This document shows positions 1 to 14,825 of a stretch of DNA of 26,160 nucleotides, in pieces. Each line of letters begins with the position of its first letter. Within the stretch, counting starts at the first letter, position 1. Both the position numbers and the translations under genes were made by a program. Under the pieces are notes generated by a model that was not told where the DNA came from, made no database searches, and was given only the letters and a program-made list of their open reading frames with translations. The stretch comes from a virus. The stretch is taken from the IMG/VR virus record IMGVR_UViG_3300036791_000625, positions 1 through 26,160 of that record. One strand, given 5' to 3'.

Positions 1-127
1 TCGGCCACGACCCGCAGCGGGACGCCGCCCGTGAGCATGGAGCTCGCCGCATAGTGGCGCAGGTCATGGAGGCCCTGGGACTTGACGCCGGCGGCCCGGG
101 TGGCCTTGGTCCAGGCGTGCGACGGCC
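1..127. repeat. Contig-end overlap, left copy
   Basis: This segment is identical to 26034-26160. It lies inside the integrase gene, which reads in frame across the join, so the two copies are one locus in a circular molecule of 26,033 bp. The length, 127 bp, equals a k-mer size often used by short-read assemblers. That makes an assembly overlap of a circular template more likely than a biological terminal repeat. Confidence 0.95.
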
Positions 128-1034
128 AGCCCAGATCCCAGTGCGTCTCGCCGCCGTCGGCCGAGAACACGAACAGGTCGTCGAAACGGGCGGCCAGGCC
201 GAGGGCGAGCGCCGTTTCGAGTGCCCGCTTACGGTGCTCGCGCAGGGCGTCGAGGGCCGGGCCGGCCAGGTGGCAGGCGTAGGCGCGCTTGGCCTTGGTC
301 TCTTTTTCGACCTCCACGTTGTCGCCGTCGATGGTGATGGCGCGGGAAAACACGACCGTGCCGGCGTCCAGGTCGACGTTGCGCCAGCGGAGCGCGACCA
401 CTGTCCCGCGCCGGGCACCGGTGTCGGCGGCGAGGCGCATATAGGCCCGCACGGCGTCGCTGGCGGCCGCCTCGAGCACTCGGCCGAGCTCGGCCGTCGA
501 CAGTATGTGGGCGCGCTCGGGCGCCTGGCCGCCGGCCGCCACTACCCGGGTCATGGGGTTGCGCTTGAGGTCGCCCAGGCGTTCGGCGTCGTTCATGACG
601 GCGGCCACCACGCCGTGCCACCGGCGCCGGGTCGAAGCGGCCCGGCCATCGGCCTCCCACCCGGCGTACATATCCTCGACCTGGCGGGGCGTGATGGCGT
701 TGAGGTCGGTCCAGCCGATCACGGGCAGGATGTAGTGCTTCAGTTGGTACTCAGTCTCGCGGGTGGTCTTGGGCGACCAGCGGCCGCGGTTGCGGGCCAC
801 CCAACCGGCGGCTGTGCCGGCGAAGGTGCGGCCGTCGAGGCCGCCGGGCCAGTCCTCGTCGAGCTTGTCGGCGATCTCAACTTGCAACCGGGCCTCGGCC
901 AGCACGGCCGCCTTGTGCCCGGCGCGGTTGTTCGGCGCCTTGAAACTTCGGACGACGCGGTGACGGTCGTTGCGGTTGCCTTTGACGGTGGCGGTGATGC
1001 GCCAGCAGTCGCGGTCGGTGTCAAAACGGGCCAT
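1..1034 (-). CDS. int: Tyrosine integrase, N-terminal 344 residues (continues at 26160..25916)
   Basis: Site-specific tyrosine recombinase that would integrate the phage at a host tRNA gene. The ATG is at 1034 and the frame runs off position 1, resuming in the right-hand copy to give a 383-aa protein. An N-terminal arm-binding region (about residues 1-70) is followed by an SAM-like core-binding domain (about 70-165) and the catalytic domain. Visible catalytic residues are Arg208 in TGARRG, a Lys near 247 in the KETKAKR segment, and His323/Arg326 in HDLRH; the tyrosine lies in the other fragment. The gene sits next to attP and reads away from it, the usual arrangement. It is split only by the arbitrary opening of the circle. 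Confidence 0.95.
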   Translation of the reverse strand, partial: MARFDTDRDCWRITATVKGNRNDRHRVVRSFKAPNNRAGHKAAVLAEARLQVEIADKLDEDWPGGLDGRTFAGTAAGWVARNRGRWSPKTTRETEYQLKHYILPVIGWTDLNAITPRQVEDMYAGWEADGRAASTRRRWHGVVAAVMNDAERLGDLKRNPMTRVVAAGGQAPERAHILSTAELGRVLEAAASDAVRAYMRLAADTGARRGTVVALRWRNVDLDAGTVVFSRAITIDGDNVEVEKETKAKRAYACHLAGPALDALREHRKRALETALALGLAARFDDLFVFSADGGETHWDLGWPSHAWTKATRAAGVKSQGLHDLRHYAASSMLTGGVPLRVVA

Positions 1035-1113: not shown

Positions 1114-1134
1114 GTGGCACCGAATGTGGCACCG
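1114..1134 (+). repeat. Left arm-type pair of GTGGCACCG repeats
   Basis: Two direct copies of GTGGCACCG at 1114-1122 and 1126-1134 are spaced 12 bp start to start. The same 9-mer recurs as an identically spaced pair at 1302-1322, on the other side of the tRNA-like core. Paired direct repeats on both sides of an attP core are the layout of arm-type binding sites for the integrase N-terminal domain. The repeats are seen directly; binding is inferred. Confidence 0.75.
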
Positions 1135-1171
1135 GCCCTCGCTCCCTAGATCCTAGAAAGTGCCTCTGACC

Positions 1172-1220
1172 TGGAGCGGACGACGGGATTCGAACCCGCG
1201 ACCCTCACCTTGGCAAGGTG
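1172..1220 (-). other. attP: attP core: 3' half of tRNA-Gly(GCC)
   Basis: On the minus strand this reads as the end of a tRNA: anticodon arm with stem CACC/GGTG around loop TTGCCAA (anticodon GCC, glycine), a short variable loop, T arm GCGGG-TTCGAAT-CCCGT, 3' acceptor strand CGTCCGC, discriminator T and an encoded CCA. There is no 5' half upstream, so this is not a functional tRNA gene. Temperate phages often carry such a 3' tRNA half so that integration rebuilds the host gene. Its position beside int and between two arm-repeat pairs supports attP. Identity with the host probably starts near the anticodon stem. Confidence 0.88.
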
Positions 1221-1301
1221 CTAGGAAACCGTAAAACCGCAGGTAGATAGGTATATCCAGGATTCCCGGTTTCGCCCCGTTTCCTGGGGTTTCGCGGTGG
1301 T

Positions 1302-1322
1302 GTGGCACCGGGCGTGGCACCG
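1302..1322 (+). repeat. Right arm-type pair of GTGGCACCG repeats
   Basis: Two direct copies of GTGGCACCG at 1302-1310 and 1314-1322 share the orientation and 12-bp spacing of the pair at 1114-1134. The rest of 1035-1401 is non-coding. It holds the attP core, a short GTGTG/CACAC inverted repeat near 1070-1082 in the int leader, and weak hairpins near 1335-1351. Confidence 0.75.
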
Positions 1323-1948: not shown

Positions 1949-2653
1949 TTAGTGGTCCCACAGGTTTAGCCAACTGTCGTTGGGGTCGTCGATGACCCGG
2001 TCGGCGATGTTCTGCTCGAGACCGGGCGGGATGAGCCGCCAGTAGGTGTGCTTGCCGTCGTAAATAGCCCAGCGCACCTTGCCGTCTTTGGACCGTATGA
2101 ACACGTCCTCACCTCCTTCGCCGAGCTCGGGCACCGGGACCAGGTCGCCCCGGGCCATGTCCATGACGTCTTCGATCGGGAAACCGGGCCCGCAATCCCA
2201 ATGGCCGCCGCCGGCGGCGCCCAGGTCGACGTGCTGGCACACGCCGGCGGCGCCGTTTTGGGCCTCGTAGGCCGACAGGGAGACCAGCGGGATGGCGAAG
2301 GCGGCCGCTTCTTCGGCCACCCACGCCGCCGCGTTAGCCAGCATGTGCGGGTGGCGCGACCACTCGGCCGCGTCCCATTCGGCGAAGGCGCACAGCTCGG
2401 CCGCCACCGAGTAGGGGTTGGCGTTGCCTTGCGTCCACGCCTTTTTATCGCGGTGCACGTACTCGCCGATAGTGCCGGGGGTGTCGTCGATGCCCACGTG
2501 CGAGCTCACGCCGCTCGAGGGATGACCGAAAAAGGCGCCCAGGTCCTGGTAATTCTGGGCGCCTTCGGCCGTATGGCAGACTATCAATCTTGTACTGGTC
2601 CCACCCCGAGAACTATAGTTCGGCGAAGGCAACCACACTCTTTTCAAAGCCAT
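1949..2653 (-). CDS. Endolysin: zinc N-acetylmuramoyl-L-alanine amidase
   Basis: A 234-aa peptidoglycan amidase (Amidase_2/PGRP type) that would cleave between MurNAc and L-Ala at lysis. Zinc ligands are visible: His27 in VCHTAEG, His141 in CQHVDLG and Cys154 in WDCGPGF, with Glu86 in the expected central part. The catalytic domain fills residues 1-165. The last 60 residues, after an acidic linker, contain a short aromatic module (KVRWAIYDGKHTYWRL) that could bind the wall. There is no signal peptide, which agrees with holin-dependent export. No lysin B follows. ATG 2653 has an AGGAG about 12 nt upstream. Confidence 0.93.
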   Translation of the reverse strand: MALKRVWLPSPNYSSRGGTSTRLIVCHTAEGAQNYQDLGAFFGHPSSGVSSHVGIDDTPGTIGEYVHRDKKAWTQGNANPYSVAAELCAFAEWDAAEWSRHPHMLANAAAWVAEEAAAFAIPLVSLSAYEAQNGAAGVCQHVDLGAAGGGHWDCGPGFPIEDVMDMARGDLVPVPELGEGGEDVFIRSKDGKVRWAIYDGKHTYWRLIPPGLEQNIADRVIDDPNDSWLNLWDH

Positions 2654-2670
2654 ACTTAGGGGGTTCTCCT
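2654..2670. promoter_or_regulatory. 17-bp divergent gap with two opposed ribosome-binding sites
   Basis: Only 17 bp separate the endolysin ATG on the minus strand from the HNH ATG on the plus strand. Within it a TAGGGGG motif (2657-2663) faces the HNH start, and on the other strand AGGAG faces the endolysin start. There is no room for promoters here, so any promoters must lie inside the neighbouring genes. Confidence 0.6.
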
Positions 2671-3234
2671 ATGAGGCGGCGCGGCAAATGGGCCGACACG
2701 GTGCTTACGTGCAAGAACGGCCACCTCTACCCCCCCGATGTGCCCCGAGGCCGCGACGGTCGGCGCCTTTGCCCTCGGTGCCGTCCCCCAGGTGCGAAGC
2801 CCATCGCGCTCGAGGCGAGGTTGTGGCGCCGCGTCCGTCGCGACGGGCCAAATGATTGCTGGCTTTGGCTCGGTGGCACAAACGGTAATGGCTATGGCGT
2901 CATCGGGACGGGTGGGCGCGAAGGGCACCAAACCTACGTCCATCGGGTGACCTGGGAACTGGAGCGTGGCGCCATCCCCGCGGGGCTGGAGATCGACCAT
3001 CTTTGTCACACAAAACTGTGCGTAAACGTCCGTCATATGGCTTTGGTCACGCATCAAGAGAACAACCGGCGTAGTCCTACACCTTCGACGATCAATGCCA
3101 ACAAGACCCATTGCCCCGCTGGCCACCCCTACGACGACGCCAACACTTACAGGCCGCCCGGAGCGCCTAACACTCGAATGTGCCGGGCGTGTATGGCCGT
3201 TCGTGAACTGAAGCGTCCGCGTCGTCCCCGTTAG
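2671..3234 (+). CDS. HNH endonuclease with flanking zinc ribbons, opposite strand
   Basis: A 187-aa HNH nuclease (HNH_3-like). The core is the region HRVTWELERG...GLEIDHLCHTKLCVNVRHM, with the His-Asn-His metal site formed around DHLCH, N and H. Two CxxGH...CxxC motifs flank it: CKNGH...CPRC at the N-terminus and CPAGH...CRACM at the C-terminus, likely structural zinc ribbons. ATG 2671 is chosen because TAGGGGG lies 7 nt upstream. It is the only plus-strand gene in the late region and stands between the endolysin and a small acidic gene, so it looks like a free-standing homing endonuclease inserted in the operon. It may act on related phage DNA rather than in packaging. Confidence 0.88.
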   Translation: MRRRGKWADTVLTCKNGHLYPPDVPRGRDGRRLCPRCRPPGAKPIALEARLWRRVRRDGPNDCWLWLGGTNGNGYGVIGTGGREGHQTYVHRVTWELERGAIPAGLEIDHLCHTKLCVNVRHMALVTHQENNRRSPTPSTINANKTHCPAGHPYDDANTYRPPGAPNTRMCRACMAVRELKRPRRPR

Positions 3235-14078: not shown

Positions 14079-14825
14079 TTAGTCGCCCCGGTGGTCGGTC
14101 ACGGTGACGGTGGCCCGGCCCCACAGGGTGACCGGCACCCGTGCCCGGCCGGCCAGGGTGACGGTGACTCGTGCCCTTTTCTGTTTCGGGACAGCACCGT
14201 ATATGCCACCGAGGCAGTCGGTGGCACCGGTCCCGCTGGCCAAGGGGAAAGTCGGGGCGTACGCGGTACTACCCGCCAACGACGCGTTGTAAATGACCGG
14301 GTGGTTCGAGCCGGTGCCTTGAGGGGGGGCAATAAACCCGGCCGTCTGGCCCGAACCAGCCGCGCCGACTGTGCCGAGGCCGTTAGCGACGTAAACCTGT
14401 CCGGCCCCGGTGGTGGTGAGCGAAGGCCAGAGGTAATCGGCCGTGCTGGCCGAATAGAGGTCGATAGCTTCGATGAGCTCCCACGTCACCGCCACGCCAG
14501 CGGTGAACTCAAAAACGAAGTAACCCCCGGTTGTGCCCGAAACGGTCTCGCTGGCGTCGATGGTGATGGGTGAGCCGGCGGCGTTCGTGACCGCCCACCA
14601 CTGGCCGACGTGGTTGTTGAAAACATCGTTACCGCCGTCGGCCGCTTGTTTCCACGACCCGTAGCCCGAAGCGGGGACGCCGCCGCTGTTCACGGCGGTA
14701 ATCAGGGAGCCGTTCTGCGAATTGGTGGCGACGGCCAGGACGAGCAGGTTGTCGACCCCAGCCGGGATCAGGGTGATCGGACTACTGGATTTATCGATGA
14801 ACTGGACGAGCGACGGCACTGCCAT
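14079..14825 (-). CDS. Beta-rich virion protein, function unknown
   Basis: A 248-aa protein from ATG 14825 with AAGGACC upstream. It is rich in Gly/Ser/Thr/Val with alternating hydrophobic residues, as in extracellular or virion beta-sandwiches, and has several aromatic loops (SGYGSWKQAADGGNDVFN; VGQWWAVT). The last 30 residues contain a short repeat of the type RVTVTLAGRA / RVPVTLWGRA / TVTVTD. It has no signal peptide or membrane segment. It stands between protease and capsid genes, where a head fibre or decoration protein is likely. No family is recognised. Confidence 0.75.
   Translation of the reverse strand: MAVPSLVQFIDKSSSPITLIPAGVDNLLVLAVATNSQNGSLITAVNSGGVPASGYGSWKQAADGGNDVFNNHVGQWWAVTNAAGSPITIDASETVSGTTGGYFVFEFTAGVAVTWELIEAIDLYSASTADYLWPSLTTTGAGQVYVANGLGTVGAAGSGQTAGFIAPPQGTGSNHPVIYNASLAGSTAYAPTFPLASGTGATDCLGGIYGAVPKQKRARVTVTLAGRARVPVTLWGRATVTVTDHRGD

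Follow-up and report, generated by a model that had tools for sequence, protein, structure and literature searches.

A predicted phage attP built on a tRNA-Gly(GCC) 3' half, with a recurring octamer beside its core

Positions 1114-1322 are almost certainly the attP of a temperate actinobacterial phage with a lambda/L5-type tyrosine integrase. The window, by which we mean the whole stretch of DNA analysed, is a 26,160-base IMG/VR fragment of a tailed phage with structural, terminase, portal, lysis, RecT, and methyltransferase genes. Attachment sites of this kind are already well known, and this site adds a member. The integrase gene and the predicted parts of the site are as follows, with L numbers denoting the loci compared.

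3-1034, minus strand: tyrosine integrase gene, first gene of the window, 344 codons present (PF00589, PF22022, PF14659; alignment with four relatives)
1114-1122, plus strand: putative arm-type site, int-side pair, copy 1 (GTGGCACCG); GGCACC motif at -70 from GGGATTCGAACC (L355 -69, L337 -70)
1126-1134, plus strand: putative arm-type site, int-side pair, copy 2 (GTGGCACCG); motif at -58 (L355 -57, L320 -57, L318 -59, L337 -58)
1172-1220, minus strand: predicted attP common core, a tRNA-Gly(GCC) 3' half with CCA (from the sequence, host genes, and relatives L318, L320, and L355)
1206-1220, no strand assigned: anticodon-arm inverted repeat CACCTTGGCAAGGTG (from the sequence)
1302-1310, plus strand: putative arm-type site, distal pair, copy 1 (GTGGCACCG); motif at +118 (L355 +117, L320 +117, L318 +116)
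1314-1322, plus strand: putative arm-type site, distal pair, copy 2 (GTGGCACCG); motif at +130 (L355 +129, L320 +129, L318 +128)

The gene adjoining the site encodes a tyrosine recombinase and matches the phrog_1 integrase with an E value of 1e-42. H323-x-x-R326 and an R-bearing box are present, and the C-terminus with the catalytic tyrosine is cut off by the window start; in relatives, the missing part contains TYSHR. Both the 9-mers and the tRNA half are placed between the int start codon at 1034, which is 80 bp from the first 9-mer, and small genes beyond 1400. A serine-integrase attP, which would pair a serine recombinase with a short, armless att site, was rejected, as a tyrosine recombinase adjoins the site and arm repeats are present. 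Integrase pattern searches for near relatives returned a single weak match in viral contigs and none above 60% identity in named phages. Elsewhere in the window, an HNH endonuclease ORF (2590-3234, plus strand) lies next to a minus-strand amidase gene.

The preliminary description had reported two pairs of identical 9-mers, in the same orientation and with 12-bp spacing, around a 49-bp tRNA 3' half, and it was correct: the start-to-start spacing of GTGGCACCG is 12 bp in each pair. Arm-type repeats are found on both sides of the core, as in lambda/L5-type attPs. Chance or low complexity could in principle produce such repeats, as a fifth copy of GTGGCACCG occurs in coding DNA at 14221 and 4-6 copies of some 9-mer are likewise present in a few more 366-bp segments elsewhere in the window. 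However, 0.9 copies of GTGGCACCG are expected in the whole window, and none of 100 shuffles contained five. Dinucleotide shuffling of 1035-1400 yielded any 9-mer at four or more copies in 4 of 3000 trials, a conservative test because the repeats themselves lie inside the shuffled region. With the 12-bp spacing equal on both sides and the positions common to four relatives, we regard a chance origin as extremely improbable.

The pair pattern GTGGCACCGNNNGTGGCACCG was also searched for in viral contigs. Most of the 15 loci found are intragenic repeats and were rejected; only L016 and L017 are attP-like. In these two (L016 6474-6493 and 6003; L017 1564-1583), a GTGGCACCG pair and more copies lie just 3' of a tyrosine integrase, around an A+T-rich stretch. 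BLASTP detected no relation between their integrases and that of the window, and the site is likely an attP that shares the window's arm word.

The reverse complement of 1172-1220, CACCTTGCCAAGGTGAGGGTCGCGGGTTCGAATCCCGTCGTCCGCTCCA, comprises a GCC anticodon arm (CACC-TTGCCAA-GGTG), T arm, acceptor strand, discriminator, and CCA, and its 3' end faces int. The 46-bp core is identical to host genes, as in tRNA-rebuilding attPs, whose definition asks for a core that matches a tRNA 3' half exactly over about 30-45 bp or more (PMC10865867). The two bases before the 46-mer are AT in all host tRNA genes read and AG in the window, so the identity ends at 1220, one base past the anticodon stem. By analogy with known tRNA-targeting tyrosine integrases, CACCTTGGCAAGGTG likely represents two core-type integrase sites with strand exchange inside. 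ARAGORN found no complete tRNA in the window. Lysogeny of the tRNA-dependent type, in which the core is short, about 10 bp, and the phage encodes a tRNA of matching isotype (PMC10865867), does not match: the core here is long, and the 26-kb window, from a contig that is a fragment, showed no phage tRNA gene. Folded as RNA, the stretch shows nothing remarkable (z -1.05). At 1311-1379 on the plus strand, a degenerate tRNA-like stretch (AGAGCATCACCCTGTAATGGTGAGGGCCGAAG) resembles the D/anticodon region of host tRNA-Gly at 24 of 29 bases by eye and scores only 13 bits with the Rfam tRNA model.

Three IMG/VR loci, L355, L320, and L318, encode integrases 49-51% identical to that of the window over residues 1-344, and their attPs contain the same tRNA-Gly half in the same orientation. 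Unlike the window, in which the arm sequence is GTGGCACC, their arm-like repeats are TGGCTCC or TTGCCTCC. Measured from the T arm, the repeats lie at -70/-58/+118/+130 in the window, at -69/-57/+117/+129 in L355, at -57/+117/+129 in L320 (with a variant repeat at -70), and at -80 and -59 on the int side and +116/+128 on the distal side in L318, so that most are within 1-2 bp of the window positions. The preliminary description had taken the stretch for an attP with the 9-mers as predicted arm-type sites, and we agree: integrase domains adjoin, and relatives retain the tRNA half, with arms placed almost identically despite a different arm sequence. Such an apparent change of sequence at fixed positions is the behavior expected of arm-type sites, and within one integrase family it can be used to match integrase N-termini to arm sites. 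All three loci also contain further arm-like repeats, with additional copies in L355 and L320, so the four sites need not be the full set. The L337 integrase is 49% identical and is accompanied by GGCACC repeats at -70 and -58 around a core from a different tRNA; the integrase family as a whole is therefore not tied to tRNA-Gly.

These comparisons also bear on a different account, in which the tRNA half is what remains of a phage tRNA gene after decay and the repeats serve to regulate the integrase promoter. The arms do lie just upstream of int, and the Rfam tRNA model aligns in full over 1240-1175, scoring 25.8 bits against a gathering score of 29, although a subthreshold score is also expected for a 3' half. 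This account is at odds with the end of host-gene identity at 1220, with a distal pair 117-130 bp past the T arm, and with the arm positions kept by relatives that have other arm sequences, and we consider it very unlikely.

For the attP reading, lambda and L5 suggest how the site would work, including binding, bending, and cut positions. The N-terminal domain of the integrase would bind the four GTGGCACCG arm sites, while its catalytic domains would bind the anticodon-arm inverted repeat in the tRNA-Gly(GCC) half, where strand exchange with the host tRNA gene would take place. The phage would bring an identical new 3' half including CCA and restore the host gene, so the tRNA gene would stay whole. 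After integration, int would lie directly downstream of the tRNA gene and in the same direction.

The core had been put forward as a direct handle on the host, a claim that proves weak. A pattern search with CCA left out found the 46-bp core without change in at least 119 stretches. Nearly all are from Actinomycetota, Acidimicrobiaceae among them, and each of the matches listed has the core as the 3' portion of a tRNA-Gly(GCC) gene. It thus names a phylum at most, and identification of the host through this widespread 46-mer was rejected. The suggested search of host tRNA-Gly(GCC) genes did find the core at their 3' part and, in L095, an adjoining integrase, but it found neither an integrated copy of the window phage nor a pair of empty and occupied sites. 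In L095 (4025-5347), from an Acidimicrobiaceae genome, a tyrosine integrase gene comes directly after tRNA-Gly(GCC)-CCA and points the same way, with a tandem repeat GCTCTACTAAT; this is probably an integrated element with the arrangement expected after integration of such elements.

A further element, absent from the preliminary description, lies between the int-side arm pair and the core, and a second stretch across the core may be related to it.

1157-1173, plus strand: conserved element AAAGTGCCTCTGACCTG; its octamer CTGACCTG at 1166-1173 overlaps the last two bases of the tRNA CCA
1237-1246, plus strand: possible degenerate inverted copy of the element (CCGCAGGTAG), across the core, where other attPs often have CAGGTCAG

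The resemblance at 1237-1246 is suggestive only. AAAGTGCCTCTGACCTG itself recurs beside the tRNA halves of phages BritBrat, GAL1, and Journey13, though their integrases and arms differ. In viral contigs, AAANTGCCYYTGACCTG gave 99 matches, many of them repeats of a few coding families, versus 27 for the reversed pattern, and at least 120 contigs have CTGACCTG at 0-24 bp outside a T-arm consensus of tRNA, versus 22 for the reversed octamer. Among the matches listed, with near-duplicates removed, 69 of 98 CTGACCTG sites lie within 1.5 kb of a tyrosine integrase (1 of 19 for the reversed-octamer control); these 69 span 47 integrase clusters at 50% identity and a GC content of 0.55-0.71. The distance from CTGACCTG to the T arm among the matches listed is 10-13 or 17-24 bp and never 0-9 or 14-16 bp. 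These two classes are about one DNA turn apart and may reflect helical phasing. Of 68 sites at 25-54 bp from the T arm, 14 have an integrase nearby. Across the T arm, about 120 listed loci, with near-duplicates kept in, include 22 with CAGGTCAG and 11 with CTGACCTG, and none with the reversed controls. Bases at -9 to -7 of the element, outside the selection pattern, are A-rich, and the consensus reads roughly AAAN4CCTCTGACCTGCGG. On the attP side of L460, L457, L510, and L443, inverted repeats of the form CTGACCTG-N6-CAGGTCAG lie 39-51 bp outside the T arm, with a longer spacer in L443.

Besides the window, the element was seen in L148, L208, L232, L298-L414, and L281-L288, flanking tRNA attachment cores of many unrelated actinobacterial phages, and it also occurs elsewhere. 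In 51 of 60 named-phage rows, evenly sampled and counted by hand, it lies within about 140 bp of a genome end; in BFK20, for instance, it occupies 33-51, and the cos site is annotated at 1-13. Actinobacterial plasmids contain it as well, in intergenic DNA. An 18-mer form occurs in 9 of 148 Mycobacterium-genus genomes, with six of the nine copies about 20 bp or less from a complete tRNA gene's 3' end, and in 5 of 150 Streptomyces-family genomes, where several copies lie within one repeated, insertion-sequence-like unit. This unit (L290, L292, L293, and L295-L297), present in four copies in one genome, carries AAAGTGCCTCTGACCTGC at one end, with GGAGGCACTT(C/T)CC following about 70 bp later. The 18-mer is absent from 12 actinobacterial genomes searched. 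A chromosomal regulatory motif was rejected, with only 14 of the 298 Mycobacterium-genus and Streptomyces-family genomes containing the 18-mer and none the reversed control. An origin of the element as host DNA carried along was rejected, as none of the host tRNA-Gly(GCC) genes (0/123) has CAGGTCAG within 80 bp downstream.

What CTGACCTG does can be read in several ways from its distribution. Our own guess, offered as a tentative lead, is that it could be an actinobacteria-wide host-protein site, at two distances from the core and often inverted across it, that serves integration and packaging; the protein reading it is possibly the actinobacterial integration host factor mIHF/sIHF. In Escherichia coli, IHF serves both integration and packaging of lambda, and the placement of CTGACCTG at attPs and genome ends recalls the lambda IHF sites. 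A serious competitor is a role as transcription terminator or insulator next to the tRNA. Some loci (L313, L382, L327, and L353) place the octamer within a GC hairpin that a T run follows; in L285 and L287, the neighboring sequence can pair as a terminator. Many copies, however, have no hairpin by eye, the orientation to neighboring genes near phage genome ends is mixed, and the distance to the tRNA falls into two classes, and a terminator is thus conceivable without being probable. Xis sites are often found between an arm pair and the core, which is where CTGACCTG lies in the window, and the octamer might accordingly bind a phage excisionase (RDF). We consider this unlikely, as phages with 47 integrase clusters have CTGACCTG in common and copies are also found close to phage genome ends and on plasmids.

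If CTGACCTG is a host-factor site, the element could matter more than the attP itself: L5 integration needs mIHF (PMC4111918, Table 1), yet mIHF reportedly shows no sequence specificity in its DNA binding (PMC10028186). The open-access text searched contained no description of the CTGACCTG element or of an IHF motif in an attP. A candidate site common to actinobacterial attPs and genome ends makes the existence of a host-factor site, and the protein that reads it, directly testable.

Several known phages share parts of this arrangement. The Gordonia phages BritBrat and GAL1, like the window, surround a tRNA-Gly half, 5' of int, with two direct-repeat pairs of 12-bp period and have CTGACCTG at -19, the same offset. 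They differ in their arms (ACGTAAG), in an integrase about 28% identical over part of its length, and in a core orientation to int opposite to that of the window. The attPs of L5 and D29, which are served by an mIHF-dependent tyrosine integrase, also use a tRNA-Gly 3' half as core, with arm repeats on both sides and int adjoining, but their integrase and arms are different. D29 (L363) likewise carries CTGACCTG outside the tRNA end; the anticodon side of its core faces int, whereas in the window it is the tRNA 3' end that does so. In cluster K1 and cluster J mycobacteriophages, two pairs of 10-11 bp arm sites flank a tRNA or tmRNA core (PMC3203893, PMC3706429), although the tRNA or tmRNA and the arm sequences are others and the two pairs of cluster K1 are inverted to each other, unlike those of the window. 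The same architecture has thus been described for mycobacteriophage attPs (PMC3203893, PMC3706429) and in a general statement (PMC10865867).
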